Shown: positions 4,051 to 55,218 of the stretch, in pieces
Layout: every line of letters begins with the position of its first letter
How positions within the stretch are numbered: the stretch's first letter is position 1
Source: a virus
Reading direction: 5' to 3' (one strand)
Virus record (IMG/VR): IMGVR_UViG_3300042484_002853
Coordinates: 1-64,000 of that record
Length of the DNA stretch: 64,000 bases
Translations under genes and position numbers: made by a program
Notes under the pieces: model-generated
Told to the model about the DNA's origin: nothing
Seen by the model: the letters and a program-made list of their open reading frames with translations, nothing else
The model's database searches: none

Positions 4051-4169
4051 GATTAAAAATGTTCCAACATACTAATAAAATTATAAATACAGGATTGGTT
4101 CGTAAAATAAATGGACATGATAAATATATTAAATTATTAACTAACAAACTAATAATTTATTTAAGATGA
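4047..4169 (+). CDS. array B unit 9 micro-ORF
   Basis: 40 aa, MRLKMFQHT start (Arg at position 2), ends NKLIIYLR. Confidence 0.75.
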   Translation: MRLKMFQHTNKIINTGLVRKINGHDKYIKLLTNKLIIYLR

Positions 4170-9370: not shown

Positions 9371-9511
9371 ATGAAATTAGATATAACAAGTTTTAATTGG
9401 GTAGTAATTATTTCAAATAATAAAGAAATTTGGTATAAAAATTTAAATATTGGAAACAGAGAAAATGTAACGGTCTTTAAAAGAAATCAATTATTTATCT
9501 TCGCAAGATGA
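9371..9511 (+). CDS. array C unit 1 micro-ORF
   Basis: 46 aa, MKLDITSFNW start, KEIWYKN in the middle, ends NQLFIFAR. Confidence 0.75.
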   Translation: MKLDITSFNWVVIISNNKEIWYKNLNIGNRENVTVFKRNQLFIFAR

Positions 9512-9675
9512 AATTAAAAGTTCAATTATTTGATAATAAAATAACTAATATTTATAAATGGTATATGGTAGAATTATTCCCTATAATGAATTCTACTCAT
9601 ATCGAAATAAAAATTTGCAACTGTATTAAAAATTTAAGGAAAAAACCCAATATTTTAATAATATTTACAAGATGA
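9508..9675 (+). CDS. array C unit 2 micro-ORF
   Basis: 55 aa, MKLKVQLFDN start, IYKWYMVELF in the middle, ends NILIIFTR. Its stop overlaps the DHFR start. Confidence 0.75.
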   Translation: MKLKVQLFDNKITNIYKWYMVELFPIMNSTHIEIKICNCIKNLRKKPNILIIFTR

Positions 9676-10190
9676 AACTTATTCTAGCAATCTCCAAAAA
9701 CGGTGCAATTGGCAATAACAACCAATTGTTATTCAAACAATCAAATGACCTACAAAGGTTCAAAAAATTAACAACAGATAATGTTGTAATTATGGGGAGA
9801 AAGACATTTGAATCATTAGGTTCAAAACCACTACCTAACAGAATTAATATTGTTATCACTAGAAATGTATCTAACTTAGAACATTTACAATTAAAACATG
9901 ATAATTTGTTTATTGTAGATACAATAGCTAAAGCGATTGATATTTCAGAAGTATATTACCCAACAAAAGAAATATTTCTTATAGGTGGTGCTGAAATATA
10001 TAAACAAACTATTCCTTTATGTACCAAAGTTTACTTAACATTAATTGAAACAGTTGTTGAAGAATTTGATAGTGAAATTGACCTAAATTTATTATTCAAT
10101 GATAAATTTAAACAAACAGTTGTCGGTAAAGGTATTGCTGATGAAAAGAATGAATTTGATTATGTTTATTTTGAATTGGATAGATTATGA
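9672..10190 (+). CDS. folA: dihydrofolate reductase
   Basis: 172 aa. N-terminal LILAISKNGAIGNNN, folate-site Asp in SNDLQRFKKLT (D26), cofactor motif VIMGRKTFESLG, and IFLIGGAEIYKQ match bacterial and phage DHFR along the full length. It makes tetrahydrofolate for thymidylate and purine synthesis, complementing the nrd genes upstream. The gene is embedded as a cassette in array C with ATGA overlaps on both sides, and its MKL start is formed by the array junction. Confidence 0.93.
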   Translation: MKLILAISKNGAIGNNNQLLFKQSNDLQRFKKLTTDNVVIMGRKTFESLGSKPLPNRINIVITRNVSNLEHLQLKHDNLFIVDTIAKAIDISEVYYPTKEIFLIGGAEIYKQTIPLCTKVYLTLIETVVEEFDSEIDLNLLFNDKFKQTVVGKGIADEKNEFDYVYFELDRL

Positions 10191-10327
10191 AACTTTTAAT
10201 CAACCATAATGTAGATATTAAGTTTCATACTATAAATGAAACAATTATTCTTTTTTATAAAAAACAACGTGTAGATTTACATTTAATACATACAGTTAAT
10301 AGATTATTAATATTAGGTAAAAGATGA
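10187..10327 (+). CDS. array C unit 3 micro-ORF
   Basis: 46 aa, MKLLINHNVDIKFH start, ends NRLLILGKR. Start overlaps the DHFR stop. Confidence 0.75.
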   Translation: MKLLINHNVDIKFHTINETIILFYKKQRVDLHLIHTVNRLLILGKR

Positions 10328-10470
10328 AACTTCTCATTTTCAAAACTAACCCAAAACAACCTATGTTCTTCAATAATACTAATTTTGTTTATTGTAGAAT
10401 GTTCAGATTGTATAATAATATAGAATTAACCGAATTTGAGAAAAATAAAATAATAATTTTATTAAGATGA
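10324..10470 (+). CDS. array C unit 4 micro-ORF
   Basis: 48 aa, MKLLIFKTNP start, ends NKIIILLR. Confidence 0.75.
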   Translation: MKLLIFKTNPKQPMFFNNTNFVYCRMFRLYNNIELTEFEKNKIIILLR

Positions 10471-10613
10471 AACTTAAAAAACAAGATAACAGTACATTAA
10501 AGATAAATTCTTTAATATATCAGTCTTACGGACTTGAGATTTCAGTAGATTATCGTGGTGATAGTTATCACATATATCCTATGTTAAACCATTTATATAT
10601 TATCGGAAGATGA
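10467..10613 (+). CDS. array C unit 5 micro-ORF
   Basis: 48 aa, MKLKKQDNST start, ends NHLYIIGR. Confidence 0.75.
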   Translation: MKLKKQDNSTLKINSLIYQSYGLEISVDYRGDSYHIYPMLNHLYIIGR

Positions 10614-10768
10614 AACTTAAAATAGAAAAAACAATCACAGGTTATAAATTTAAAAACTTTACTGTAGATAAATGGAACCAATTATTAGTTAAATTAAAAA
10701 GTGACTATCAATCGTCAGATTATTTTTTAGAAATAAATAAAAACCGATTAACAATATTTAGAAGATGA
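10610..10768 (+). CDS. array C unit 6 micro-ORF
   Basis: 52 aa, MKLKIEKTITGYKFKNF start, DKWNQLLVKL in the middle, ends NRLTIFRR. Confidence 0.75.
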   Translation: MKLKIEKTITGYKFKNFTVDKWNQLLVKLKSDYQSSDYFLEINKNRLTIFRR

Positions 10769-10899
10769 AACTTTCAATAGTAATATATCCTAAAAATTTT
10801 AAATTTAATAATAAATCATCAGCATTAACCTACGGTCTAAGCGATTTATTGAATAGTTCACGAAATAGTTTAAACAAACTAAATATTTTTAATAGATAA
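10765..10899 (+). CDS. array C unit 7 micro-ORF
   Basis: 44 aa, MKLSIVIYPKNFKF start, ends NKLNIFNR then TAA. Last unit of array C. Confidence 0.75.
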   Translation: MKLSIVIYPKNFKFNNKSSALTYGLSDLLNSSRNSLNKLNIFNR

Positions 10900-13037: not shown

Positions 13038-13175
13038 ATGAAATTATTTATATTCAAAAATCAAAACATACCGTTTGATAACAACAACAATCTTTACAAA
13101 AGTATAAATATTTTAGGATTAGATATAGTTACTACTATAATACATATAAATAATATATCAATATACAAAAGATGA
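13038..13175 (+). CDS. array D unit 1 micro-ORF
   Basis: 45 aa, MKLFIFKNQN start, ends NNISIYKR. Confidence 0.75.
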   Translation: MKLFIFKNQNIPFDNNNNLYKSINILGLDIVTTIIHINNISIYKR

Positions 13176-13309
13176 GATTAGAAATAGTTAATTTATATAT
13201 CCACTTTAGGTTAGATAGTAATAAAATTTGCAACTATCTTATTAACAGAGAATATTTCAATATTGGGTCTAAATCAGTACATAATTATTTAAAAATTTAC
13301 AAAAGATGA
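13172..13309 (+). CDS. array D unit 2 micro-ORF
   Basis: 45 aa, MRLEIVNLYIHF start, ends NYLKIYKR. Confidence 0.75.
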   Translation: MRLEIVNLYIHFRLDSNKICNYLINREYFNIGSKSVHNYLKIYKR

Positions 13310-13455
13310 AACTTCAGGTTAATAATTTTTCTAACATTTCAGGATTTAAATTTATTCAACATGAAAATATCAAAGATAGTTCTGTTATTTGTTTGGATGA
13401 ACTAATTGATAATTTTGTTTTTAATAAAAATAAATTAACAATCTTAAGTAGATGA
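13306..13455 (+). CDS. array D unit 3 micro-ORF
   Basis: 49 aa, MKLQVNNFSN start, ISGFKFIQ in the middle, ends NKLTILSR. Confidence 0.75.
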   Translation: MKLQVNNFSNISGFKFIQHENIKDSSVICLDELIDNFVFNKNKLTILSR

Positions 13456-13592
13456 AATTAATTATACTTAACCCACTTGTTGATTGTTTTAAACCAAATC
13501 GTTCAGTTTTTGCTGAATATTTAGTTGAACAACAACCAAATTATTATATACCAAAACCTTATATTAACAAAATATTAACCTACAGAAGATGA
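13452..13592 (+). CDS. array D unit 4 micro-ORF
   Basis: 46 aa, MKLIILNPLV start, ends NKILTYRR. Confidence 0.75.
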   Translation: MKLIILNPLVDCFKPNRSVFAEYLVEQQPNYYIPKPYINKILTYRR

Positions 13593-13705
13593 AACTTAAC
13601 ATAGAACGTAGTAGTTTACTATTAACTAAAGATGTTTACGATTTTTATCTTTATAACTCTATAAGATATAAAAATTTAAATATTTTACATATATTTTATA
13701 GATAA
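13589..13705 (+). CDS. array D unit 5 micro-ORF
   Basis: 38 aa, MKLNIERSS start, ends ILHIFYR with TAA one nt before the next ATG. Confidence 0.7.
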   Translation: MKLNIERSSLLLTKDVYDFYLYNSIRYKNLNILHIFYR

Positions 13706-13706
13706 A

Positions 13707-13826
13707 ATGAAACTTGAAAAAATAAACTTAAAATGGTGGTTCTTTACAGAAAAGGTTTTAGAAAACCACATAATAACAGCGAAAATACCTTACTCAAATA
13801 GACTAATAGTCTTTCATCGATTATGA
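13707..13826 (+). CDS. array D unit 6 micro-ORF
   Basis: 39 aa, MKLEKINLKWWFF start, ends NRLIVFHRL. Confidence 0.7.
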   Translation: MKLEKINLKWWFFTEKVLENHIITAKIPYSNRLIVFHRL

Positions 13827-14611: not shown

Positions 14612-14794
14612 ATGAAACTTAAAATAATCCCAGATATATATTATATCAGAACGAGACGTGGGAATGTTGTTATGTATAAATATTTCAATAAATATGATGA
14701 TTTATTTAATCAGATTACAAGAAAAATAAATATTAACTTAATAAAAAATGATTTAAATAAATTACATATATTTAATCGTAATTTATTATTTTAA
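14612..14794 (+). CDS. array E unit 1 micro-ORF
   Basis: 60 aa, MKLKIIPDIYY start. It has NKLHIFNR near the end followed by four extra residues (NLLF) and TAA, so the usual stop has been lost. Confidence 0.7.
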   Translation: MKLKIIPDIYYIRTRRGNVVMYKYFNKYDDLFNQITRKININLIKNDLNKLHIFNRNLLF

Positions 14795-14805
14795 AATAGA
14801 TGAAC

Positions 14806-14937
14806 ATGAAATTACAAACAAAATACAATTTAATGTTTAAATTTAAAAACGATACAAGCAGTTTTGCTTATTGTTTAGATGAATTACTTGAACGTAAAGA
14901 AATACATATTAATTGGTTATTGACTTTTGAAAGATGA
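14806..14937 (+). CDS. array E unit 2 micro-ORF
   Basis: 43 aa from the MKLQTKYN start (an ATG two codons upstream is also in frame). LMFKFKND in the middle, ends NWLLTFER. Confidence 0.7.
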   Translation: MKLQTKYNLMFKFKNDTSSFAYCLDELLERKEIHINWLLTFER

Positions 14938-15041
14938 AATTACAATTATTAACCACTTCAGCAAAATTCGGTTATAGAAGTGATGAAAAAACATATAACA
15001 CACAAATATATAGAATTTATTCTATATATCAAATTATTTAA
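14934..15041 (+). pseudogene. array E unit 3, truncated micro-ORF
   Basis: 35 aa, MKLQLLTTSAKFGY start. Ends SIYQII without the conserved tail. Probably the 5' part of a unit split by the TnpB insertion. Confidence 0.5.
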
Positions 15042-16366: not shown

Positions 16367-16474
16367 AATTAATTGTATAGATTTTAATAATTTGTATAGT
16401 TTTTAGGACATAATTTGTTTGAAATAATTTCACAAAAAATTTATTATAACGGGAAAATAATTATATTTAAAAGA
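16367..16474 (+). other. tnpB 3' flank with orphan micro-ORF tail
   Basis: No start codon in the array style. The frame from 16400 reads FLGHNLFEII then YYNGKIIIFKR and stops at 16475-16477, overlapping the next unit by ATGA. This is the C-terminal signature of a unit without its N-terminus. The stretch just after tnpB is also where an omega-type guide RNA would lie, but I cannot define one by eye. Confidence 0.45.
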
Positions 16475-16623
16475 TGAAATTACAATACTACATTTGCAAT
16501 AATCTAGTTTTTCATGTCAAACAAGGAGAATTACTAATGACTGAATTTATATTTGGTGCATACAACAAAACTGAACCTATTAACGCATTATCTAAAGATA
16601 GAATTTATATATTAAAAAGATGA
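16474..16623 (+). CDS. array F unit 1 micro-ORF
   Basis: 49 aa, MKLQYYICNN start, ends DRIYILKR. Confidence 0.75.
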   Translation: MKLQYYICNNLVFHVKQGELLMTEFIFGAYNKTEPINALSKDRIYILKR

Positions 16624-16760
16624 AATTACAAGTTGATAAACCCACACAGAACTTTGACCCATTTGATAAAACCCATTGGTTTTATTTTGGCATTCAAAAA
16701 TGGTATGGTGGTAAATTATTTAAATTTGACAATAACAAACTAATAATCTTTTTAAGATGA
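16620..16760 (+). CDS. array F unit 2 micro-ORF
   Basis: 46 aa, MKLQVDKPTQ start, DKTHWFYFGIQKW in the middle, ends NKLIIFLR. Confidence 0.75.
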   Translation: MKLQVDKPTQNFDPFDKTHWFYFGIQKWYGGKLFKFDNNKLIIFLR

Positions 16761-16906
16761 AACTTAAAATATTTAATTTAGAAGATTATGATTTTATTCT
16801 TACAGGTTTAAATCTAAATGTTAACGGTTTTCACAACATTGATGTGATAACATTCATAAAAAATAATCATAACAGAAAAAGTTTGTTTATATTCAAACAA
16901 AATTAA
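16757..16906 (+). CDS. array F unit 3 micro-ORF
   Basis: 49 aa, MKLKIFNLED start, ends SLFIFKQN then TAA. Confidence 0.7.
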   Translation: MKLKIFNLEDYDFILTGLNLNVNGFHNIDVITFIKNNHNRKSLFIFKQN

Positions 16907-16912
16907 TAGTTT

Positions 16913-17077
16913 ATGAAACTTAACATAATAATAACCTATAAAACAGGTTTTAATAGTACTTTCAATACAGTTAATTGGATTTACCTCTCTATCAATCAAT
17001 TAAATTTAAGAAATTTATCTGATGAAGAGAGGTTTTTCAATAAAATATTGTTATTCAAAAATAAAAACCTCCCCTAA
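16913..17077 (+). CDS. array F unit 4 micro-ORF
   Basis: 54 aa, MKLNIIITYKTGF start, NWIYLSIN in the middle, NKILLFKN near the end. The normal stop is lost and translation runs into the terminator (KNKNLP, TAA). Confidence 0.65.
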   Translation: MKLNIIITYKTGFNSTFNTVNWIYLSINQLNLRNLSDEERFFNKILLFKNKNLP

Positions 17078-31869: not shown

Positions 31870-32313
31870 ATGTATAAAAGAGTCAAAGTTAATCATCCAA
31901 TCAAATGGGATGAGAATGAGAATATAGTAATAACCATACGTTATAAAGAAAATAAAAAAATACACACCAAAAAAGTTAAATTAACATCAATATATAAAAT
32001 AGGTGTTGAATTTATAACTGAATACTATAAAAACGGTAATATCAAAGGTTTAAAAAGTAAAGGTTATATTATAGATAATGAATACCATAGAACAGAGATA
32101 CATTTTGTTTATCTTAAAAAAATAAGAAAAGCTTGTAGAATATATGGTATTATGGCTGTTATAAAAGAAGAACCAGTTACAGTAACATTACCAAATGAAA
32201 AAGAAATTACAAGAATAAATAAAGAATATGTTTGTAAATGGAAAAAAAATGTTACCTTTGCAACAACACAAAAAGAAGTTAGTGCTAGAAGACTTAAAAG
32301 AAATAAGATATGA
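31870..32313 (+). CDS. basic hypothetical protein leading array G
   Basis: 147 aa, very Lys-rich and basic (IRYKENKKIHTKKVKLTSIY), with repeated beta patterning and no recognised domain. Basic charge would allow nucleic-acid binding. Its stop overlaps the first array G unit (ATGA at 32310). Confidence 0.55.
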   Translation: MYKRVKVNHPIKWDENENIVITIRYKENKKIHTKKVKLTSIYKIGVEFITEYYKNGNIKGLKSKGYIIDNEYHRTEIHFVYLKKIRKACRIYGIMAVIKEEPVTVTLPNEKEITRINKEYVCKWKKNVTFATTQKEVSARRLKRNKI

Positions 32314-32456
32314 AACTTAAAATATTAAATACTGGACATTATTTTCATATTAATACGTTAGTATTAACTAGAGAATGGAAAAATCATAATTGGGAACATA
32401 GAAATAAATTAGTTATATTTATAAAAGATGAAACAAGATATTATAACTTAACATGA
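32310..32456 (+). CDS. array G unit 1 micro-ORF
   Basis: 48 aa, MKLKILNTGHYFH start, REWKNHNWEH in the middle, NKLVIFIK near the end followed by extra residues (DETRYYNLT): the usual stop is out of frame here. Confidence 0.7.
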   Translation: MKLKILNTGHYFHINTLVLTREWKNHNWEHRNKLVIFIKDETRYYNLT

Positions 32457-32620
32457 AACTTACAATACATGATATTTCTAAACATGATAAATCTAACGAG
32501 GATTTTAATTATTACGGATATTCAATTGGTAATGTTTCTAATATAAGAACTTGGACAATAGAAGAAATAATACAAACATATTCTTCCTTTATTAATGTAA
32601 TTACAATTTTAAAAAGATGA
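32453..32620 (+). CDS. array G unit 2 micro-ORF
   Basis: 55 aa, MKLTIHDISK start, RTWTIEEII in the middle, ends NVITILKR. Confidence 0.75.
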   Translation: MKLTIHDISKHDKSNEDFNYYGYSIGNVSNIRTWTIEEIIQTYSSFINVITILKR

Positions 32621-32754
32621 AACTTTACATAAGAAACAGAGTTATAGCTAAATTAATAACTACTAATAATATTAATTATTCAGATGGTTATTATAGTTTA
32701 AAAACTATAATTAACTATAAGTGGAATGATGTACTAATAACCTTTACAAGATGA
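32617..32754 (+). CDS. array G unit 3 micro-ORF
   Basis: 45 aa, MKLYIRNRV start, KWNDVLITFTR end. Stop overlaps the amidase start. Confidence 0.75.
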   Translation: MKLYIRNRVIAKLITTNNINYSDGYYSLKTIINYKWNDVLITFTR

Positions 32755-33311
32755 AACCAGAAATAACAACCAAAGAAACACCAAAGGATAGAATTATGTT
32801 AATCAATTCTTTGATGAAAGAACATGACTACACGGACAGATTATCTTTGCAACATGAAGTTATTCAACCACACTATATAATCAACAGAGAAGGTGTTTTA
32901 ACGCAATTTATGGATACTAAATTTCATAACAAGATTACAGGTATTAATAAAATTGATAGTTATAACATAACAATTTGTTTAGAAAATCTAGGTTGGTTGA
33001 AAGAAGTTGATAATGATACTTTTGAAAACTGGTATAATGTATTGGTACCAAGTGATGAAGTATTCAGAAAGAAATACATGGACCAAACTTTGTGGCATAA
33101 CTACACAAAAGAACAATATTCTACATTGAGAGTTTTACTAAAAGAATTACTAACTAAACACAATATAAAACGTGATTGTGTTTCACATATATTCCCAATA
33201 GATAACGTTGAAATGTATGAAGGTATCTTCTGTAGAGCAAACATTGGTTTAAATTACACAGATGTATCACCAGCGTTTAGTTTTAATGAAATTAAAAAGA
33301 TATTGAAATGA
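32751..33311 (+). CDS. N-acetylmuramoyl-L-alanine amidase-like protein
   Basis: 186 aa. HYIINREGVLTQFMD, FHNKITG, ITICLENLGWL, a Trp/Tyr region, EQYSTLRVLLKELLTKHNIK and VSHIFP follow the Amidase_2 (type-2 amidase) order: strand with His, substrate loop, helix, then a late His. Zinc-ligand assignment is by pattern. It would cleave the glycan-peptide bond of peptidoglycan. No signal peptide. Encoded as a cassette in array G, so it would be expressed with micro-ORFs instead of with late lysis genes, which is odd for a lysin. Confidence 0.75.
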   Translation: MKPEITTKETPKDRIMLINSLMKEHDYTDRLSLQHEVIQPHYIINREGVLTQFMDTKFHNKITGINKIDSYNITICLENLGWLKEVDNDTFENWYNVLVPSDEVFRKKYMDQTLWHNYTKEQYSTLRVLLKELLTKHNIKRDCVSHIFPIDNVEMYEGIFCRANIGLNYTDVSPAFSFNEIKKILK

Positions 33312-33430
33312 AATTGGTAAGAACAAATATAAATTTAAAACTCGTCTGTAATGTTTCAGTAGGCTATATTACGTATGAAAAATTAATAACAATTGGTTTG
33401 TATGATACAATAATAACATTACTAAGATGA
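33308..33430 (+). CDS. array G unit 4 micro-ORF
   Basis: 40 aa, MKLVRTNINLKL start, ends DTIITLLR. Start overlaps the amidase stop. Confidence 0.75.
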   Translation: MKLVRTNINLKLVCNVSVGYITYEKLITIGLYDTIITLLR

Positions 33431-33543
33431 AAATACAACTAAATAATTCAACCAGATTTAATAAAGATTGGTTTAATGAGTTTCAACCTAATTATGATTT
33501 AAATAATAAAGTACATAATAGAATTTATATTTACTGGAGATGA
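33427..33543 (+). CDS. array G unit 5 micro-ORF
   Basis: 38 aa, MKIQLNNSTRFNKDWF start, ends NRIYIYWR. Confidence 0.75.
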   Translation: MKIQLNNSTRFNKDWFNEFQPNYDLNNKVHNRIYIYWR

Positions 33544-33665
33544 AACTTAAAAGAGAGAAATTTTATACTAAATTCGATATTATATATAGTGATGGAAGAA
33601 GTTTTATTCAAACTATTACAGATTATAAAATGTTTTATAATCAACTTATATCGTTATCAAGATGA
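33540..33665 (+). CDS. array G unit 6 micro-ORF
   Basis: 41 aa, MKLKREKFYTKF start, ends NQLISLSR. Confidence 0.75.
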   Translation: MKLKREKFYTKFDIIYSDGRSFIQTITDYKMFYNQLISLSR

Positions 33666-33802
33666 AACTTAATATAACTAATCATAAGTGGAAATTTGTT
33701 GGCGAGAAAAAAGATGTTTTCCAAAATTTAACTGAAAATTGGTGTCTTAGTGAACTTATAGATAATACTAAGCATAACAAATTAATAACATTTCCAAGAT
33801 GA
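33662..33802 (+). CDS. array G unit 7 micro-ORF
   Basis: 46 aa, MKLNITNHKWKFVG start, ENWCLSEL in the middle, ends NKLITFPR. Confidence 0.75.
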   Translation: MKLNITNHKWKFVGEKKDVFQNLTENWCLSELIDNTKHNKLITFPR

Positions 33803-33936
33803 AACTTAAAAACACAAAATTTACATTAAGGTTTTTGAATATATCAGGTATAAATGATAGTAGTAGTTTAGAAATATTATTACTTAATAGAAATGAATCT
33901 TTCAGATTAAACCGATTAATTATTTATTGGAGATGA
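33799..33936 (+). CDS. array G unit 8 micro-ORF
   Basis: 45 aa, MKLKNTKFTLRF start, ends NRLIIYWR. Confidence 0.75.
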   Translation: MKLKNTKFTLRFLNISGINDSSSLEILLLNRNESFRLNRLIIYWR

Positions 33937-34070
33937 AACTTATAAGAATACCTAATAACTGGAAGTTTGTTGGAAATCAACTATTAGATAATAATCACGA
34001 TGAGTGGTATATTGAAGATTTTACAGGTTCAAAAGAATACTACAATAAAATTTTAACATTTAAAAGATGA
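33933..34070 (+). CDS. array G unit 9 micro-ORF
   Basis: 45 aa, MKLIRIPNNWKFVG start, DEWYIEDF in the middle, ends NKILTFKR. Paralogue of unit 7. Confidence 0.75.
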   Translation: MKLIRIPNNWKFVGNQLLDNNHDEWYIEDFTGSKEYYNKILTFKR

Positions 34071-34183
34071 AACTTAACATAATAAAACACTACCAATATC
34101 ATAAATTTAATAATTTTTGGTACCAATGGATATTAACCAACAAAAGATTTCTATCTGATTCGATAACTATTTTTACGAAATAA
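34067..34183 (+). CDS. array G unit 10 micro-ORF
   Basis: 38 aa, MKLNIIKHYQYHKFNNFW start, ends DSITIFTK then TAA. Last unit of array G. Confidence 0.75.
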   Translation: MKLNIIKHYQYHKFNNFWYQWILTNKRFLSDSITIFTK

Positions 34184-40786: not shown

Positions 40787-40933
40787 ATGAAACTTGGAAT
40801 AGATAATATAGGTAATAACAACACAAACCTTAGATTTACAAATAATAACATCAAAAGTGTTGAGATGAATATTAACTGGGTAATCACTAACAAATATGAG
40901 TTTCTTAATGAAGTAATTATTTACAGTAGATGA
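40787..40933 (+). CDS. array H unit 1 micro-ORF
   Basis: 48 aa from MKLGIDNIG (an ATG two codons earlier is in frame). INWVITNK in the middle, ends NEVIIYSR. Confidence 0.75.
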   Translation: MKLGIDNIGNNNTNLRFTNNNIKSVEMNINWVITNKYEFLNEVIIYSR

Positions 40934-41058
40934 GATTAACAATAAGAAACTATTCAAAATATAGGTTCCAAAACGAATGGCAATTTGAATTACTTACTCA
41001 AAATAAATTTGGTATTATTTCCGGGGATTTAAATCATATTAAAATTTACAAAAGATGA
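40930..41058 (+). CDS. array H unit 2 micro-ORF
   Basis: 42 aa, MRLTIRNYSKYRFQNEW start, ends NHIKIYKR. Confidence 0.75.
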   Translation: MRLTIRNYSKYRFQNEWQFELLTQNKFGIISGDLNHIKIYKR

Positions 41059-41183
41059 AACTTAAAGTAGTGAATTACAGTAAAATGTTTAATGAAACTT
41101 GGATATGTCATGTATTTCTAGGTATTCATAATTATACGATTGATAAAGATGATTTAAATGTTATAACAGTTTATAGAAGATGA
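41055..41183 (+). CDS. array H unit 3 micro-ORF
   Basis: 42 aa, MKLKVVNYSKMFNETW start, ends NVITVYRR. Confidence 0.75.
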   Translation: MKLKVVNYSKMFNETWICHVFLGIHNYTIDKDDLNVITVYRR

Positions 41184-41320
41184 AACTTAAAATATTGAAA
41201 TTTACTAATCATGTTTATAAAAATTTTGAACATAGTACTATATATAATTTATTAACTGAAAAAGTGAAATTTAATTTAGATAATGGTTTTTGTAACCATA
41301 TAGAAATTTACAAAAGATGA
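41180..41320 (+). CDS. array H unit 4 micro-ORF
   Basis: 46 aa, MKLKILKFTN start, ends NHIEIYKR. Confidence 0.75.
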   Translation: MKLKILKFTNHVYKNFEHSTIYNLLTEKVKFNLDNGFCNHIEIYKR

Positions 41321-41457
41321 AACTTAAAATATACGATTGCTCGCATGATGCTTACCTTACCTTTAAAAACACTTGGCATTGTGAATGTTTAATTAAACCA
41401 GGTAGTTTTGATATTAATAATGAAGATTTAAATTATATTGTAATAAATGTAAGATGA
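41317..41457 (+). CDS. array H unit 5 micro-ORF
   Basis: 46 aa, MKLKIYDCSH start, YLTFKNTWHCECL in the middle with three Cys overall, ends YIVINVR. Confidence 0.75.
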   Translation: MKLKIYDCSHDAYLTFKNTWHCECLIKPGSFDINNEDLNYIVINVR

Positions 41458-41603
41458 AATTAAACATAGACAAAAGAACATTGGGTCATTCTGTTTGGGA
41501 TACTACATTAAACAAATTATTATATTTTGTTTATCCGTTCAGTTCATTTGACTACAGGTCCAAAAACAATATTGTCGTTTATTATAAAAATAGCGAAAGA
41601 TGA
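41454..41603 (+). CDS. array H unit 6 micro-ORF
   Basis: 49 aa, MKLNIDKRTLGHSVW start, ends VVYYKNSER. Confidence 0.75.
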   Translation: MKLNIDKRTLGHSVWDTTLNKLLYFVYPFSSFDYRSKNNIVVYYKNSER

Positions 41604-41749
41604 AACTTAATATTGACAAAATGTTTAATCAACATCATCAAAATTTTAATTTAACATCATTAGGTTGGATGTTAATAAACGGAGCTAGAACTTGGTCGTT
41701 ATTTCAACGTGAAGAATACTGTAACATTATAACAGTTTACAAAAGATGA
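41600..41749 (+). CDS. array H unit 7 micro-ORF
   Basis: 49 aa, MKLNIDKMFN start, LGWMLINGARTW in the middle, ends NIITVYKR. Confidence 0.75.
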   Translation: MKLNIDKMFNQHHQNFNLTSLGWMLINGARTWSLFQREEYCNIITVYKR

Positions 41750-41886
41750 AACTTAAATTACATGATTATTCAGAACATTCTAAATATATATTTAATGATA
41801 GTTGGTTATATAAATATTTAGTACTAAATTCAAATCATAAAATAGATAATAAAATAACTAACTTAATTTATATTTGTGAAAGATGA
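41746..41886 (+). CDS. array H unit 8 micro-ORF
   Basis: 46 aa, MKLKLHDYSE start, YIFNDSWLYKYL in the middle, ends NLIYICER. Confidence 0.75.
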   Translation: MKLKLHDYSEHSKYIFNDSWLYKYLVLNSNHKIDNKITNLIYICER

Positions 41887-42026
41887 AAATATTAATAGAA
41901 AAACACGACATTTATGGTTATGAGAAATTTAATGTAATTTGGACAATAGGTTACCATAATGAAACAGGTGAATTCGCAATGATGTTTGACGATGATTTTA
42001 ATAGAATAAAAATATACAAAAGATGA
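41883..42026 (+). CDS. array H unit 9 micro-ORF
   Basis: 47 aa, MKILIEKHD start, YEKFNVIWTIGY in the middle, ends NRIKIYKR. Confidence 0.75.
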   Translation: MKILIEKHDIYGYEKFNVIWTIGYHNETGEFAMMFDDDFNRIKIYKR

Positions 42027-42148
42027 AACTTAAAATACACCCTGTTCTAACTAAGATTCAATATAGTTCAATCATACCTGTATTAACACGTAAAGGTTTT
42101 CAAGTTAAATTAATAAATTTAAACACATTAATAATTCTTTCAAAATGA
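42023..42148 (+). CDS. array H unit 10 micro-ORF
   Basis: 41 aa, MKLKIHPVLTKIQYSSII start, TRKGF in the middle, ends NTLIILSK. Paralogue of unit 15. Confidence 0.78.
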   Translation: MKLKIHPVLTKIQYSSIIPVLTRKGFQVKLINLNTLIILSK

Positions 42149-42273
42149 GATTAGAAATAACTTGTTTTGTAGGTGTGAAATTCATTAACTCAAGTTATTT
42201 TAATATAATAACAGTATCAAAAATTAAATATTTTAAAAGCATTCGCAATGAATTAATGTTATATGTAAGATGA
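42145..42273 (+). CDS. array H unit 11 micro-ORF
   Basis: 42 aa, MRLEITCFVGVKF start, ends NELMLYVR. Confidence 0.75.
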   Translation: MRLEITCFVGVKFINSSYFNIITVSKIKYFKSIRNELMLYVR

Positions 42274-42404
42274 AACTTAAACTTTACTTATCACCTGGAC
42301 CATTTAGTACTAGTTGGATATATACAGTATTAATTGATAATAGTTACCATCAATTTGACATAGAAAATAAAGAACTAAATATTATGTACGTTTATGAAAC
42401 TTAA
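42270..42404 (+). CDS. array H unit 12 micro-ORF
   Basis: 44 aa, MKLKLYLSPG start, FSTSWIYTVLID in the middle, ends NIMYVYET. The Arg-stop is replaced, so it overlaps unit 13 by 11 nt. Confidence 0.7.
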   Translation: MKLKLYLSPGPFSTSWIYTVLIDNSYHQFDIENKELNIMYVYET

Positions 42405-42525
42405 GATATTTGATGTAAGTAACTCAGCGTATTATATAAGTTTTCAGGAACTTCACAGTCTGTATGTGGGTTACGAAACAAATCCATACGACAAAAATAT
42501 AATTTTAATTTATAGTAGAAGATGA
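42394..42525 (+). CDS. array H unit 13 micro-ORF
   Basis: 43 aa, MKLKIFDVSNS start, ends NIILIYSRR. N-terminus close to that of unit 21 (MKLKIFDPSNT). Confidence 0.75.
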   Translation: MKLKIFDVSNSAYYISFQELHSLYVGYETNPYDKNIILIYSRR

Positions 42526-42692
42526 AACTTAAGATAGTAAATATAACAGACATGGTTTTTAACCACATTGATAACATGCATACTCTAGTACCAACTAAAT
42601 TTAATACAACTAAATTATATAGTTCAGTTAATACTTTAGTGATATCATTTGGTTATCCTTTAAATAATACAATAAATATATTTGTAAGATGA
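42522..42692 (+). CDS. array H unit 14 micro-ORF
   Basis: 56 aa, MKLKIVNITD start, NTLVISF in the middle, ends NTINIFVR. Confidence 0.75.
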   Translation: MKLKIVNITDMVFNHIDNMHTLVPTKFNTTKLYSSVNTLVISFGYPLNNTINIFVR

Positions 42693-42814
42693 AACTTAAA
42701 ATACATCCTATTTTAATTAAGGTACAAAGTAGTTCAATTATTTCTACAATAACTCGCAAAGGATTTCGCACAAAATTAACATATACAAATAGATTAATTA
42801 TTCATTCAAGATGA
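42689..42814 (+). CDS. array H unit 15 micro-ORF
   Basis: 41 aa, MKLKIHPILIKVQSSSII start, TRKGF in the middle, ends NRLIIHSR. Paralogue of unit 10. Confidence 0.78.
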   Translation: MKLKIHPILIKVQSSSIISTITRKGFRTKLTYTNRLIIHSR

Positions 42815-42966
42815 AACTCTCAATAACAGATGCTTCCAAACCAGGTTATTTTAATAAATCAATAACGTTTAATAATGAGCATGTATTAAAAAAATCAGTT
42901 AATATTAGTTATGTTATAAAAAATATTGATATATTTGTAAACGAATTGGTGATTTATTTGAGATGA
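42811..42966 (+). CDS. array H unit 16 micro-ORF
   Basis: 51 aa, MKLSITDASK start, ends NELVIYLR. Confidence 0.75.
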   Translation: MKLSITDASKPGYFNKSITFNNEHVLKKSVNISYVIKNIDIFVNELVIYLR

Positions 42967-43100
42967 AACTTAAGATAACTAGATTACAAAACTTTGGAGA
43001 AGGTTTTTCGGAACGTGAATTAGCTAAATGTTTAGCGACAGGTAAAATTGAGGTAGTAATGAAGCACAGGATAAATGTAATTTCAATTTACAGAAGATGA
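42963..43100 (+). CDS. array H unit 17 micro-ORF
   Basis: 45 aa, MKLKITRLQN start, ERELAKCLATGKIEV in the middle, ends NVISIYRR. Confidence 0.75.
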   Translation: MKLKITRLQNFGEGFSERELAKCLATGKIEVVMKHRINVISIYRR

Positions 43101-43231
43101 AACTTAAAATAGAAGAACCAAGATATAACAAAACACGATTTAATTTGACTAGTTGTTGTTCATATTTACTGGGTGAATTTGAAATCGACACAAGACTTTG
43201 GTTAAACACTTTAACAATTTACAGAAGATGA
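43097..43231 (+). CDS. array H unit 18 micro-ORF
   Basis: 44 aa, MKLKIEEPRYNKTRFNL start, ends NTLTIYRR. Confidence 0.75.
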   Translation: MKLKIEEPRYNKTRFNLTSCCSYLLGEFEIDTRLWLNTLTIYRR

Positions 43232-43365
43232 AACTTGCAGTAGGTAAACAATTAAATTATTTTGTGTATAATAGGGTTGTAACTGATGGTTCAGAATTGG
43301 AATTATCTGACATTATAAAACTTTGGAAAAGAAATATTTTATTAACGTTTTATAGAAGAAGATGA
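43228..43365 (+). CDS. array H unit 19 micro-ORF
   Basis: 45 aa, MKLAVGKQLNYFVY start, ends NILLTFYRRR. Confidence 0.75.
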   Translation: MKLAVGKQLNYFVYNRVVTDGSELELSDIIKLWKRNILLTFYRRR

Positions 43366-43529
43366 AACTTGCAAGACAAAACATATTAAAACATTTAGGT
43401 TTACATAATTTGAGGTTTCATATTGATTATCTTAAAGTATTTAATGAAAAAGATATAAACATAATTAGAGGAAAATTTTATTATCTCGACCAACCACATA
43501 TTGGTCAATTAAATATTTATAGAAGATGA
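43362..43529 (+). CDS. array H unit 20 micro-ORF
   Basis: 55 aa, MKLARQNILK start, NLRFHIDYLKVF in the middle, ends GQLNIYRR. Confidence 0.75.
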   Translation: MKLARQNILKHLGLHNLRFHIDYLKVFNEKDINIIRGKFYYLDQPHIGQLNIYRR

Positions 43530-43657
43530 AATTAAAAATATTTGACCCAAGTAATACATTATCAACTTATACGACAAGTGATTACAATATAATTAATATT
43601 GAAACCGCTATACAAATGTTTGATTACGATAAAATTTTTATATTTTATAGAAAATAA
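43526..43657 (+). CDS. array H unit 21 micro-ORF
   Basis: 43 aa, MKLKIFDPSNT start, ends DKIFIFYRK then TAA. Last unit of array H. Confidence 0.75.
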   Translation: MKLKIFDPSNTLSTYTTSDYNIINIETAIQMFDYDKIFIFYRK

Positions 43658-47861: not shown

Positions 47862-48008
47862 ATGAAACTTAAGATAGAATATAATGATACAGTTTTTCAT
47901 GTTAATTTTAACCATGATAACTCATTAGTTAAACATATTTTAATAGGTAATAAAAGACATGACTCTATTACTTTACCTTTCAATGATATAAAGATACTAA
48001 AAAGATGA
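47862..48008 (+). CDS. array I unit 1 micro-ORF
   Basis: 48 aa, MKLKIEYNDTVFHVNF start, ends NDIKILKR. Stop overlaps the DUF262 start. Confidence 0.75.
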   Translation: MKLKIEYNDTVFHVNFNHDNSLVKHILIGNKRHDSITLPFNDIKILKR

Positions 48009-48577
48009 AACCTGTAATAACATTAGCTGATATAGCACCAAAGTTTGAACTTAAGAATAAGATAAAAAAGAATCACTGTTCTTATAGTTTACGTCAATTA
48101 GTTGATAAGCGATATGTACCTGAGATTGATTTTAATGTTTGGTTACCAACCAAAAATAAGAATTTACAGCGAGATTTTTGTTGGAATTTAGAACAAAAAC
48201 GTGAATTGATTAAATCAATATTCAAAGAATTGTTTATTCCAAATATATCTGCAATATTTCATCATCCTTTTAATGATAATCATAAGTACAAACAATTACT
48301 TATTATTGATGGAAAACAAAGATTATCTACAATTATTGATTTCTTAAATGATAAATTTAGTTTATTAGTAAATGATGTAGAATATTTGTTTAGTGAATTG
48401 CCTGTAGAACTAAGGACTCAATTTCAAAGATTTCCAATAAACTTTGATGTTGTTTACAGTTATCACGATGATTATTTAACTGATAATCAAAAGATTAGTT
48501 GGTTTGAACAAATTAACTTTGCAGGAACACCACAGGATATTGAACATTTAAATAACTTAAAAAGATATGAAACTTAA
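48005..48577 (+). CDS. DUF262 (GmrSD N-terminal-like) protein
   Basis: 190 aa. Motifs LQRDFCWNLEQKRELIKSI, LLIIDGKQRLSTIIDFLN and INFAGTPQDIEHLNN follow the order R-x-F-x-W, D-G-x-Q-R, and N-x-x-G of DUF262, a ParB/sulfiredoxin-like NTP-binding domain. In GmrSD-type enzymes DUF262 is fused to an HNH-type nuclease; here it stands alone at domain length. That leaves regulation of a host GmrSD enzyme or an unrelated phage role as options. It is a cassette in array I. Confidence 0.82.
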   Translation: MKPVITLADIAPKFELKNKIKKNHCSYSLRQLVDKRYVPEIDFNVWLPTKNKNLQRDFCWNLEQKRELIKSIFKELFIPNISAIFHHPFNDNHKYKQLLIIDGKQRLSTIIDFLNDKFSLLVNDVEYLFSELPVELRTQFQRFPINFDVVYSYHDDYLTDNQKISWFEQINFAGTPQDIEHLNNLKRYET

Positions 48578-48683
48578 TATCAATTCTTATCAAGTTACTG
48601 TATTCTGTATTGACGGTTGGTTTATACCTTTGGTTAAAGATATTAAAAGAACTAAAAATATAATTTGGTCATTTCCAAGATGA
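48567..48683 (+). CDS. array I unit 2 micro-ORF
   Basis: 38 aa, MKLNINSYQVTVFCIDGW start, ends NIIWSFPR. Overlaps the DUF262 stop by 11 nt. Confidence 0.7.
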   Translation: MKLNINSYQVTVFCIDGWFIPLVKDIKRTKNIIWSFPR

Positions 48684-48833
48684 AACTTAAAATTGATACA
48701 GAATCTGATTACCAATTTAACCACTATGATTCATTTATTAAAAAAGAATTAATTAATGGTTTTAAACGGAATACGAGATAAATTAGTTAATAAAAATGAT
48801 TTGGTTAATAATATTTACATATTTAGAAGATAA
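48680..48833 (+). pseudogene. array I unit 3, frameshifted micro-ORF
   Basis: Starts MKLKIDTESDYQF and stops after 33 codons at 48781. The tail DLVNNIYIFRR continues in the +1 frame to TAA at 48831-48833. One indel near 48760-48775 would restore a normal unit. Confidence 0.55.
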
Positions 48834-48846
48834 ATTTGTTTTATAG

Positions 48847-48870
48847 AAACCTTTTGTTTATATTTACGTT
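48847..48870 (+). promoter_or_regulatory. middle-type promoter
   Basis: AAACCTTTTG then TATATTTACGTT, 23 nt before the 104-aa gene. Confidence 0.65.
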
Positions 48871-48893
48871 TATAAACAAAACTTATTAAAGAC

Positions 48894-49208
48894 ATGAATA
48901 TATTAAACAAATTCATTAACTGGAATTACCTATATCATCAAGAATTGAGATTTTCAATAGATGAATCATTATTTGATGAAGATGATACGGATGACGCTAA
49001 ATTAATAGAACTAATTAAACAATTCAAAAACGATACCCAAGTTGAATTAGATAAAGATGAATGTTATATTAAAGATAACGAAATAATTCTTTTCTTTAGT
49101 GAAACAGGCGGACAAAATGAATCGGACCCGGATGGTTGGACAAGGATTTATTCTCTTGAATTTAATGGTGATGGAGAACTAATTAACATAGATTATAGTC
49201 AAGGTTAA
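48894..49208 (+). CDS. acidic hypothetical protein
   Basis: 104 aa, acidic (ESLFDEDDTDDAKLIELIKQ-like segments), with ETGGQNESDPDGWTRIYSLEF. Not recognised. Followed 5 nt later by the 77-aa gene. Confidence 0.55.
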   Translation: MNILNKFINWNYLYHQELRFSIDESLFDEDDTDDAKLIELIKQFKNDTQVELDKDECYIKDNEIILFFSETGGQNESDPDGWTRIYSLEFNGDGELINIDYSQG

Positions 49209-49213
49209 AAATT

Positions 49214-49447
49214 ATGCAAGCAAAACACTACATTTCAAAAACTAAGTTTGATTCGTTGAAATCAAGCAAAGAAACACTTTATCCTTTATTGGTTGAAGTT
49301 ATAGAAGAATTCGGTTTAGGAACTTTAAAAGTTGAGGATATAATCAACTGCAAGATTGGTCCAACACACTGTGAGATAGTTTTATCTGAATTAGAACCAG
49401 AAACAGGTTTGAATAAAATTATTTTATTAGGGTTCTGGTTTGACTAA
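49214..49447 (+). CDS. hypothetical protein
   Basis: 77 aa, helical start then beta strands (THCEIVLSELEPETGLNKI). Not recognised. It ends 1 nt before array J unit 1, so it leads the array transcript. Confidence 0.5.
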   Translation: MQAKHYISKTKFDSLKSSKETLYPLLVEVIEEFGLGTLKVEDIINCKIGPTHCEIVLSELEPETGLNKIILLGFWFD

Positions 49448-49448
49448 G

Positions 49449-49589
49449 ATGAAACTTAGATTATATGATTATTCTAAAGATTATTATCTTAGAAATGATA
49501 GTAATAATTGTATGTTTACTTTTACTATTAAACAATTTAATTCAGGAAATCTTGAATGGTTAAATACTATAACAATATTTGCAAGATGA
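49449..49589 (+). CDS. array J unit 1 micro-ORF
   Basis: 46 aa, MKLRLYDYSK start, LEWLNTITIFAR end. Confidence 0.75.
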   Translation: MKLRLYDYSKDYYLRNDSNNCMFTFTIKQFNSGNLEWLNTITIFAR

Positions 49590-49714
49590 AACTTGAAATT
49601 TCTTACGAACGTTTAACAAGCCAAAATTATTCTTTAATTAAGTTTGATTTATATGAATTAAAATTTAACATAGACGTTAAAGATTTTAATCAATTATTAA
49701 TATATGAAAGATGA
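49586..49714 (+). CDS. array J unit 2 micro-ORF
   Basis: 42 aa, MKLEISYERLTSQNYSLIKF start, ends NQLLIYER. Paralogue of unit 3. Confidence 0.78.
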   Translation: MKLEISYERLTSQNYSLIKFDLYELKFNIDVKDFNQLLIYER

Positions 49715-50172
49715 AAAATATAATACTTAATTCCAATTCAAAAATAACTGATTGTTCAGTTACAAGTCACCAAGGTGACTACGAAGTAACAATTTATTAC
49801 AATTATGTTCTAGATAACGAAACAGAAGTTAACAAAGGGCAACAATATTTCATTGGTACAAATATTATCTTAAAAGAAATCAATAAATATTTAAACAAAC
49901 GTCACAAACACCTAACTATCTTAACTGTTAATGAACCTTTACCAATTAATGAACCAGAAGAAGAAATAATAGGTACAACAGGACCGATTGTTGATTTGTT
50001 TAATAAAGAACTAACAGATGAAGAATGGAAAGCTATTGAGGTCGTGCATAATTTAAAGAATAGATTAAATCTTGGAATTAGATTTGACTGGTCTAAAAGC
50101 ATAGATGTACGTTCTGAAGAATGCTCACAAATTGTTGATGAATCTGTGTTTAACAATAGAATTAAAATATAA
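49711..50172 (+). CDS. hypothetical protein inside array J
   Basis: 153 aa, MKNIILNSNSKITDC start from the array junction. Beta-rich first half (YEVTIYYNYVLDNETEV), helical second half with EEWKAIEVVHNLKNRLN. Not recognised. It overlaps unit 2 by ATGA and ends 3 nt before unit 3. Confidence 0.6.
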   Translation: MKNIILNSNSKITDCSVTSHQGDYEVTIYYNYVLDNETEVNKGQQYFIGTNIILKEINKYLNKRHKHLTILTVNEPLPINEPEEEIIGTTGPIVDLFNKELTDEEWKAIEVVHNLKNRLNLGIRFDWSKSIDVRSEECSQIVDESVFNNRIKI

Positions 50173-50175
50173 AAG

Positions 50176-50304
50176 ATGAAACTTAAAATTTCTTATAACC
50201 GCTTAACAAGCCAAAATTATCATTTAATTAAGTTTAATTTAGATGAATTAGAATTTATCATAGATTTTAAATATTATAACCGATTATTAATATTTAGAAG
50301 ATGA
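50176..50304 (+). CDS. array J unit 3 micro-ORF
   Basis: 42 aa, MKLKISYNRLTSQNYHLIKF start, ends NRLLIFRR. Paralogue of unit 2. Confidence 0.78.
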   Translation: MKLKISYNRLTSQNYHLIKFNLDELEFIIDFKYYNRLLIFRR

Positions 50305-50432
50305 AACTTAAAATATACGATAAAACTAGTTGGTATCTTAAAAATACTGGAACTGCTACAACAGCTTATTGTTTATCTGAAATAATAGTTGATAAGTTTT
50401 TTTATAACAACATAGCTGTATTCAAAAGATGA
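50301..50432 (+). CDS. array J unit 4 micro-ORF
   Basis: 43 aa, MKLKIYDKTSWYLKN start, ends NNIAVFKR. Confidence 0.75.
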   Translation: MKLKIYDKTSWYLKNTGTATTAYCLSEIIVDKFFYNNIAVFKR

Positions 50433-50569
50433 AACTTAGAATTGATAATTTATCAACCTGGAATTGTAGGTTAACTAATTCACGAAGTACCAATAACAGT
50501 TATAATTTTAAAGAAGTTATAAAAGAAAAAGCTGAATTTATAAATTTAATTACTATCTTTGCAAGATGA
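50429..50569 (+). CDS. array J unit 5 micro-ORF
   Basis: 46 aa, MKLRIDNLSTWNCRL start, ends NLITIFAR. Confidence 0.75.
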   Translation: MKLRIDNLSTWNCRLTNSRSTNNSYNFKEVIKEKAEFINLITIFAR

Positions 50570-50700
50570 AATTACTAATACAAAATAAAATAGGAATTAT
50601 GTGTTTTAGAAATAATAGTAATCTTACCTGTTATAATATAACTGATATTGTAAATAATAAAATGTTGTTCTACTATCAATTAACTATATTTAGAAGATGA
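50566..50700 (+). CDS. array J unit 6 micro-ORF
   Basis: 44 aa, MKLLIQNKIGIMCF start, ends YQLTIFRR. Confidence 0.75.
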   Translation: MKLLIQNKIGIMCFRNNSNLTCYNITDIVNNKMLFYYQLTIFRR

Positions 50701-50831
50701 AACTCATAACATGTATGTTAAACAAACAATTGTATTTTAGATATTATACTGATGAGATAACTATATCTATTTCTGAAATAATTAAATATAAAAATATTTG
50801 GTCAAATAAATTATATGTATTCAAAAGATGA
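50697..50831 (+). CDS. array J unit 7 micro-ORF
   Basis: 44 aa, MKLITCMLNKQLYF start, ends NKLYVFKR. Confidence 0.75.
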   Translation: MKLITCMLNKQLYFRYYTDEITISISEIIKYKNIWSNKLYVFKR

Positions 50832-50953
50832 AATTAGTAATAATAAAATTAAAATACTATCCAAGTAGTTATAATTTCTATAGCATAGGTAAAATTAAAA
50901 CATTTAATAATTGTTTTAATAATACTGACGAACTAATAATTTGTAAAAGATGA
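50828..50953 (+). CDS. array J unit 8 micro-ORF
   Basis: 41 aa, MKLVIIKLKYYPSSYNF start, ends DELIICKR. Confidence 0.75.
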   Translation: MKLVIIKLKYYPSSYNFYSIGKIKTFNNCFNNTDELIICKR

Positions 50954-51102
50954 AATTAGATATAGTATATAAAACAGATTTAGGTTTTTGTTTTAATGTT
51001 GATGACAACATAATAGCATATATATTAATTAAAAGTGATTTTTATGATAAAACTTTTAAATTTATAAATTATAAAGATTCACTTAAAATATATGTAAGAT
51101 GA
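50950..51102 (+). CDS. array J unit 9 micro-ORF
   Basis: 50 aa, MKLDIVYKTDLGFCF start, ends DSLKIYVR. Confidence 0.75.
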   Translation: MKLDIVYKTDLGFCFNVDDNIIAYILIKSDFYDKTFKFINYKDSLKIYVR

Positions 51103-51254
51103 AATTAATAATAGAAAACTCATTAAGTTTAAATTTCAGATGTAACGAAAATATTCAAGAAAATAGTACAGTTGCTGAAATTTTAGTTCAAGGTTATAGT
51201 CTAAATGATAACTTAACAAATTACAAAAATTCACTTAGAATATATAAAAGATGA
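51099..51254 (+). CDS. array J unit 10 micro-ORF
   Basis: 51 aa, MKLIIENSLSLNFRC start, ILVQGYS in the middle, ends NSLRIYKR. Related to units 9 and 11. Confidence 0.77.
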   Translation: MKLIIENSLSLNFRCNENIQENSTVAEILVQGYSLNDNLTNYKNSLRIYKR

Positions 51255-51391
51255 AATTACAAATTAAATCTCGAAGACTTTTATTTGATATATTTGACAA
51301 CATGGTTACTCAGATATTAGTTAGAGGTTATAGTGAATATCCTTTTAAATTAATTAATATTACAAATTCACTTAGAACATACGGAAGATGA
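51251..51391 (+). CDS. array J unit 11 micro-ORF
   Basis: 46 aa, MKLQIKSRRLLFDIF start, ILVRGYS in the middle, ends NSLRTYGR. Confidence 0.77.
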   Translation: MKLQIKSRRLLFDIFDNMVTQILVRGYSEYPFKLINITNSLRTYGR

Positions 51392-51522
51392 AACTTAAAG
51401 TAGAACAACTTTGGAAACAAGGTATTACTAATTTCAAATATACTGATACTTATTGGTATTTAGTAAATCGAAACGGTACTTTAAATAAAAATAGAAACAT
51501 AATATTAATTTACGCAAGATGA
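51388..51522 (+). CDS. array J unit 12 micro-ORF
   Basis: 44 aa, MKLKVEQLWK start, FKYTDTYWYLVN in the middle, ends NIILIYAR. Confidence 0.75.
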   Translation: MKLKVEQLWKQGITNFKYTDTYWYLVNRNGTLNKNRNIILIYAR

Positions 51523-51644
51523 AACTTAAAATTGATAATAACGGCTATTACTTCCAATTCAGTGCTATTAGTAACCTTTTAGTAAATAATCGTAATATAG
51601 TTATTGAACGCTGGATTAACGAAATAACAATTTATATAATATGA
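51519..51644 (+). CDS. array J unit 13 micro-ORF
   Basis: 41 aa, MKLKIDNNGYYFQF start, RWINEITIYII end (no Arg). Confidence 0.75.
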   Translation: MKLKIDNNGYYFQFSAISNLLVNNRNIVIERWINEITIYII

Positions 51645-51775
51645 AACTAAACATTAAGAACCTAACTAATACTAGGTTTATTCATTCCAGAGTTTATAAT
51701 GCACTAACGATAAATGGTACCAGTGAAATATTTTACATTTTAGATGTAAATAAACTAAACATTTTTGCAACATAA
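51641..51775 (+). CDS. array J unit 14 micro-ORF
   Basis: 44 aa, MKLNIKNLTNTRFIH start, ends NKLNIFAT then TAA. Last unit of array J. Confidence 0.75.
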   Translation: MKLNIKNLTNTRFIHSRVYNALTINGTSEIFYILDVNKLNIFAT

Positions 51776-54672: not shown

Positions 54673-54783
54673 ATGAGAGTTTATGTATGGAATTGGACCA
54701 ATTATAAATTTGATTTACATAATTTATATTCAGATATTAAATCTGAATTATTTAATGAATTATTAATTTATAAAAGAAGATGA
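54673..54783 (+). CDS. array K unit 1 micro-ORF
   Basis: 36 aa, MRVYVWNWTNYKFDL start, ends NELLIYKRR. Among the shortest intact units. Confidence 0.72.
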   Translation: MRVYVWNWTNYKFDLHNLYSDIKSELFNELLIYKRR

Positions 54784-54893
54784 AACTTGACATAAATAAT
54801 TATAGTGTAAATTTACAATCATTTGAAATATTTGATTTAGATATGTTAACTGAAATGGAATATTTTAATTGTTTAATCTTATACGCAAGATGA
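54780..54893 (+). CDS. array K unit 2 micro-ORF
   Basis: 37 aa, MKLDINNYSVNL start, ends NCLILYAR. Confidence 0.75.
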   Translation: MKLDINNYSVNLQSFEIFDLDMLTEMEYFNCLILYAR

Positions 54894-55039
54894 AACTTAA
54901 AATACATAATATTGGTTTTCATGTTGATGATGAATCAGGCGGACTTCTTTTTATTCGAGAAAAATTCACGAATAGATATTTTTATATCCCAAAAAGAATG
55001 AAAAATATTATTAACAAACTAAATGTTTTTGAAAGATGA
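54890..55039 (+). CDS. array K unit 3 micro-ORF
   Basis: 49 aa, MKLKIHNIGFHV start, ends NKLNVFER. Confidence 0.75.
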   Translation: MKLKIHNIGFHVDDESGGLLFIREKFTNRYFYIPKRMKNIINKLNVFER

Positions 55040-55218
55040 AACTTAAGATATACAATACTAGATATATTGATTCAACAGATGAAATAGTATTATTTACTGA
55101 ATTCCAATACGATAAATTGATATCAGTAAGTTATAGAACCAATAATATTTTTATATTTAAACGTAAACAAAATAAAAAAATAAGTTTATTGCAAAAAATA
55201 TTAAAATATATTTTCTAA
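55036..55218 (+). CDS. array K unit 4 micro-ORF
   Basis: 60 aa, MKLKIYNTRY start. NNIFIFKR is followed by a 17-residue basic extension (KQNKKISLLQKILKYIF) instead of a stop. Confidence 0.72.
   Translation: MKLKIYNTRYIDSTDEIVLFTEFQYDKLISVSYRTNNIFIFKRKQNKKISLLQKILKYIF

Follow-up and report, generated by a model that had tools for sequence, protein, structure and literature searches.

The locus examined here, a run of small open reading frames (ORFs) several of which resemble one another, raises the question of how such arrays come about: by recent duplication with diversification of the copies, as a preliminary description had proposed, or by an older and more constrained process. The DNA analysed, referred to below as the window, comprises bases 1-64000 of the 69,893-base IMG/VR record IMGVR_UViG_3300042484_002853. 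Our preferred reading, to which we assign a probability of roughly 0.7, is that the arrays represent one large, old family of microprotein genes with a birth-and-death mode of evolution.

Tandem arrays of microprotein genes in a T4-like phage

The window has a GC content of 23-29% and encodes a T4-type portal protein (Portal_T4, with an intein) together with NrdA and NrdB. The best relatives of the portal listed from cultured phages include Flavobacterium phages of the immuto group, at about 33% identity. The phage is T4-like and its host would probably belong to the Bacteroidota, as the relationship of the portal to the immuto group suggests. Bases 1-255 of the window are the reverse complement of bases 1-255 of a 195,283-base contig, IMGVR_UViG_3300042484_003148 (L022), at 99.6% identity. 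Given this end overlap, the window contig and the 195-kb contig are most likely neighbours, either within a single genome of 265 kb or more or in two near-identical genomes. Three further pieces of 44-53 bp (window 34178-34229, 46940-46984 and 22804-22847) are 97-98% identical to sites in the 195-kb contig, the first of them holding a hairpin that resembles a terminator (CCTCTC...GAGAGG followed by a run of T). The intein is carried in the portal gene at 19722-22805 and is missing from a 97% identical relative (G006), whose tblastn matches skip portal residues 152-573 while the flanks are contiguous in its DNA. A weak intein-like match, below the Pfam cut-off, was also seen at residues 465-769 of the ribonucleotide reductase (RNR) large subunit (4942-7620).

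Ten arrays on the + strand of the window hold 91 units of a single microprotein family, and a further 74 units in the 195-kb contig bring the family to 165. Array A (600..1606) has 7 units and is followed by arrays of 12 (3018..4619), 7 (9371..10899), 6 (13038..13826), 3 (14612..15041) and 4 units (16474..17077), by array G with 10 (32310..34183), by array H with 21 tandem microprotein ORFs and ATGA stop/start overlaps at nearly all joins (40787..43657), by array I/J with 17 units (47862..51775) and by a last array of 4 (54673..55218). The units have a median length of 44 residues and range from 29 to 62, yet stay open. The signature across all 165 reads M-K-L-x-I, F near position 13, [IL]-[YF]-x-x-[LI] and I near position 29, and closes with N-x-[LI]-x-I-[YF]-x-R. 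The arrays themselves, more than the pairwise duplicates, are the unusual feature here.

Larger genes are embedded in some of the arrays, namely a dihydrofolate reductase (DHFR) gene at 9672-10190 in the array 9371..10899, an amidase gene at 32751-33311 in array G, and two genes at 48005-48577 and 49711-50172 in array I/J. As the arrays hold the DHFR gene and lie near RNR genes, their setting is that of early genes, and the neighbourhood consists of nucleotide-metabolism and accessory genes (RNR, DHFR, amidase, GmrSD-like fragment). The embedded stretch 48005-48577 encodes a GmrSD_N/NsnA-like fragment (Pfam E 4e-17, PADLOC E 1e-15), possibly a defence or anti-defence gene. The 153-residue ORF at 49711..50172 (+) is ATGA-coupled to the preceding unit; it matched nothing in Pfam, PHROGs or PADLOC, and a second copy was not found in the contigs examined. 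For a neighbouring 656-residue protein, no relatives were found in phages or IMG/VR. Directly after the array 14612..15041 lies a TnpB-like (OrfB_IS605) gene (15086-16366). The 195-kb contig, the only return when this gene was used as bait, carries a 92% identical copy of it at G001 20615-21895; a shared piece of the gene's end recurs near G000 67200-67340.

ATGA stop/start overlaps join 117 units to the next unit, and coupled runs can be as long as a dozen genes, the sequence at the joins being conserved. In one example, at 42021..42033 (+), AGATGAAACTTAA comprises the end of a unit, its stop and the start of the next unit (the unit-to-unit junction is also given as AGATGAAACTT); exact copies of AGATGAAACTTAA occur 32 times on the + strand of the contig and never on the - strand. 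For Leu3, 92 of 158 units (58%) use CTT, compared to 81 of 633 (13%) at the other leucines of the units. Such conservation of the junction at the base level may reflect translation initiation or recombinational homogenisation. The terminal Arg/Lys is retained in 24 of the 36 units that lack a following ATGA and is therefore a trait of the protein, not merely a part of the junction. Each operon would be translated by termination-reinitiation at the ATGA overlaps; Bacteroidota reinitiate without Shine-Dalgarno motifs (PMC6728339).

An orphan family, either recent or patchy in its lineage

The family profile matched no Pfam, PHROGs or PDB family and was not found inside larger proteins, and 121 members compared with Pfam and PHROGs gave isolated single-member hits only, the best at an E-value of about 0.005. 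DNA and protein queries found no relative among 50,697 phage records. Among 2.9 million IMG/VR contigs, arrays were detected only in the 195-kb contig and in an identical 5.7-kb fragment of it; the one second contig that carries arrays (L002), which is also the only close strain covering any array, is identical to its counterpart. A pattern of three junctions, searched in viral contigs, returned a dozen unrelated contigs, all without units, and a pattern of two junctions in genome contigs gave 17 chance matches and 0 arrays; one pattern match (L042) is an identical 39-residue repeat in Okeania and unrelated. Arrays are missing from four contigs whose portals are 50-59% identical, and no chains of small coupled ORFs were seen in the portal-sharing contigs G004, G005, G007 and G008, nor in the examined part of Flavobacterium phage immuto. 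The absence from portal relatives argues that possession of the arrays is recent or very patchy in this lineage. Our literature search found no report of such arrays, and within the collections searched the microprotein family is an orphan.

Single units are copied within arrays

The counts given in the preliminary description for its two principal pairs proved exact. H10 (42023..42148, +; MKLKIHPVLTKIQYSSIIPVLTRKGFQVKLINLNTLIILSK) and its paralogue H15 (42689..42814, +), both 41 residues long and both recognised by the family HMM at E=2e-8, share 26 of 41 residues, with 9 synonymous against 15 non-synonymous codon changes and 75% nucleotide identity over the unit. J2 (49586..49714, +) and its duplicate J3 (50176..50304, +), each of 42 residues, flank the 153-residue ORF and share 29 of 42 residues, with 4 synonymous and 13 non-synonymous codon differences and 84% nucleotide identity over the unit. 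The further pairs named at the outset are likewise related, with 19 identical residues in A1/A2, 19 in A6/A7, 15 in G7/G9 and 23 in J10/J11. Against a null of 20,000 scores, for which the middle of each unit was shuffled and the family motifs at both ends were kept, z amounts to 11.0 for J2/J3, 9.7 for H10/H15, 7.1 for A1/A2, 5.1 for A6/A7 and 4.4 for G7/G9. J10/J11 lies outside the 45 best protein pairs owing to gaps; its DNA match is 71% over 87 bp (E=1.7e-9).

In an all-against-all comparison of the 165 units, 29 of 13,530 pairs score above the largest null value, and 17 of the 23 strongest pairs come from the same array, where 6.5% would be expected. The mean score within an array is 22.1 versus 17.9 after shuffling units among arrays (permutation p=0.0002), and units no more than five apart are more alike than distant ones (order-within-array permutation p=0.0004). 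A like pattern is found in the 195-kb contig, which has its own pairs (10461/10845, 64714/64821 and 65458/65592). As the 70 bases on each side of H10/H15 and J2/J3 are only 27-43% identical and identity is confined to the unit, the copied segment is a single unit. Duplication inside arrays followed by divergence, the central proposal of the earlier description, is thus borne out by unit-precise copies, same-array clustering and a similarity that falls with distance; given this clustering, copying within arrays is real.

Horizontal influx, in which similar units would have come in independently from related phages instead of being copied locally, appears rather unlikely to us: most strong pairs are near neighbours within a single array, and no donor was found in 2.9 million viral contigs. 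In its favour, two units from distant arrays, one on each contig, are also alike (3018 and G001 1958, 21/45), and an unrelated 153-residue gene sits between J2 and J3. The latter arrangement is a single case, units flanking other embedded genes being not clearly alike.

Purifying selection on mostly old copies

Pairwise dN/dS was estimated under a codon model (F3x4) with parametric bootstrap. As estimated for pairs picked by protein similarity, which biases the ratio downward, dN/dS is 0.14 for H10/H15 (95% CI 0.03-0.50), 0.02 for A6/A7, 0.17 for J10/J11 and 0.17, 0.01 and 0.01 for three pairs of the 195-kb contig, and all six pairs reject dN/dS=1 downward at p about 0.01, which is about the floor attainable with 100 replicates. 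The value of 0.16 for G7/G9 is borderline (p=0.07), that of 0.89 for J2/J3 (0.32-3.16) is indistinguishable from neutral, and that of 1.84 for A1/A2 (0.40-10), obtained with a modest transition-rate prior, is uninformative; an omega near 20 in a first fit of A1/A2 was discarded as an artefact of the estimation, with parameters at their bounds. Neutral decay, named in the preliminary description as the outcome that would speak against it, therefore describes J2/J3 only, and the other informative pairs depart from neutrality towards purifying selection.

H10/H15, A6/A7, J10/J11 and the three pairs of the 195-kb contig have saturated synonymous sites, and most pairs are therefore not recent. The pairs with saturated dS represent old copies subject to purifying selection, and only J2/J3, at a dS of about 0.6, is fairly young, so that copy ages span from this value to saturation. 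The duplications had originally been called recent, a label that has to be withdrawn for most pairs including the headline H10/H15.

The same description had noted changes at charged surface positions and suggested testing the middle region for positive selection; in such a reading, an arms race would drive the charged surface positions of the middle region apart after each duplication. Consistent with this view, the dN/dS of J2/J3 is about 0.9 with 8 of its 13 changes altering charge, 15 of 23 changes in A1/A2 are charge-altering against 8.7 expected (p=0.007, uncorrected), and pooled over pairs there are 75 such changes where 61 would be expected (nominal p=0.02). However, only 2 of the 15 changes in H10/H15 alter charge, so the change of charged positions seen in J2/J3 is not confirmed as a general rule. 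No pair tested by the codon model has a dN/dS significantly above 1, with the reservation that units of about 40 codons give little power and a few positively selected sites could escape detection; the high A1/A2 value vanishes with the transition-rate prior, and the six constrained pairs reject 1 downward in the middle region too, where estimates are no higher than for the whole unit. Diversifying selection thus appears improbable as the force behind the arrays. What the copies record is long-term constraint on the scaffold with freer change elsewhere.

Proposed birth and death of units and a possible function

In the birth-and-death reading preferred here, single units have been copied into an adjacent position or one a few units off, for the most part inside one array, the copy boundaries falling at the start and stop of the unit itself. 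The copies then diverged while keeping the scaffold MKLxI, F, [IL][YF]xx[LI] and N-x-[LI]-x-I-[YF]-x-R, a retention accompanied by purifying selection in most informative pairs. Recombination between near-identical AGATGAAACTTAA junctions could both make and remove units, and since this sequence is shared at the junctions, such recombination would yield unit-precise copies. A unit at window 48680-48833 is split between two short ORFs that overlap in different frames, being either a decayed copy or a sequencing error. Together with a 29-residue stub in the 195-kb contig (G001 40333-40422), it provides both contigs with apparent broken copies, as turnover predicts.

With the 121 paralogues as alignment, the unit 41055-41180 is modelled at a mean pLDDT of 92.1 and a pTM of 0.58 as a strand (residues 4-11), a helix (16-22) and a second strand (36-41). 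The model of H15 is poor (pLDDT 61.8), and the strand-helix-strand fold is therefore supported for the typical unit only; one fold may nevertheless be common to all units. Foldseek returned no similar solved or viral model for the unit 41055-41180 (best E 2.4). A lack of fold matches is common for 42 residues.

One scaffold, extreme divergence of the copies and a nucleotide-metabolism and accessory setting are best fitted by a host-directed set of binders. We tentatively propose that the proteins could form a library of small binders with one scaffold and a variable surface, aimed at various host or defence targets after infection. More speculative still is the full scenario, in which a jumbo T4-like phage would keep an evolvable library of some 165 binders, copied at junctions in coupled arrays, that inhibit host and defence proteins. 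The main rival to a binder set is a heteromeric assembly, with units as subunits of one hetero-oligomer (e.g., a fibre or shell) whose conserved end strands pair between neighbours and whose stoichiometry is set by coupling, so that the paralogues would diversify in the way seen for other heteromers. Conservation of both end strands in every unit, the coupled translation and the strand-helix-strand model of one unit agree with such an assembly, but it would require about 165 different subunits of very variable length in some 20 arrays amid metabolic genes, and the arrays are missing from relatives with a similar portal, which makes it unlikely in our judgement. Least probable is that the repeat is mainly a nucleic-acid element (a recombination site, RNA signal or CRISPR-like repeat) with the ORFs as by-products, as the base-level conservation of the junction beyond coding need (CTT for Leu3) and its 32 exact single-strand copies might suggest, because the units stay open at lengths of 29-62 residues, dN/dS is below 1, the hydrophobic pattern, Asn and terminal Arg are conserved, and the paralogues give a confident protein model.

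Comparison with known systems

Should the units be translated and differ in their binding targets, a bacterial virus would keep a repertoire of miniature proteins renewed by copying, and the 44-residue scaffold would be at hand in about 165 natural variants for studying the origin of binding proteins. The dN/dS analysis corrects the story, from a burst of positive selection to old, constrained copies.

Large eukaryotic DNA viruses have multigene families that evolve by birth and death, such as those of ASFV. In general outline, the arrays and the ASFV-type families have in common tandem diverged paralogues in a large viral genome with a presumed host-directed role, whereas here about 165 translation-coupled genes of about 44 codons each are carried by a bacterial virus. 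To our knowledge, and as far as our searches go, large eukaryotic viruses show paralogue expansion of such an extent, whereas phages are not known to. Integron cassette arrays are arrays of exchangeable small genes, and diversity-generating retroelements give rise to families with a variable middle, so both share features with the arrays described here. Integron arrays need attC-like sites, however, for which the 4-nt unit overlaps leave no room, and neither a reverse transcriptase nor an integron integrase was found among the about 20 window proteins scanned against Pfam and PHROGs.

The small accessory and host-takeover proteins of phages are similarly very small and poorly conserved, and the review describing them (PMC11323111) does not mention arrays, paralogues or duplication. 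Such accessory proteins are generally unrelated to each other, whereas here one scaffold has been copied about 165 times. ATGA overlaps between co-directed genes are likewise an established arrangement (PMC6728339); elsewhere they mostly join gene pairs, whereas here they link runs of up to a dozen genes through a conserved junction.
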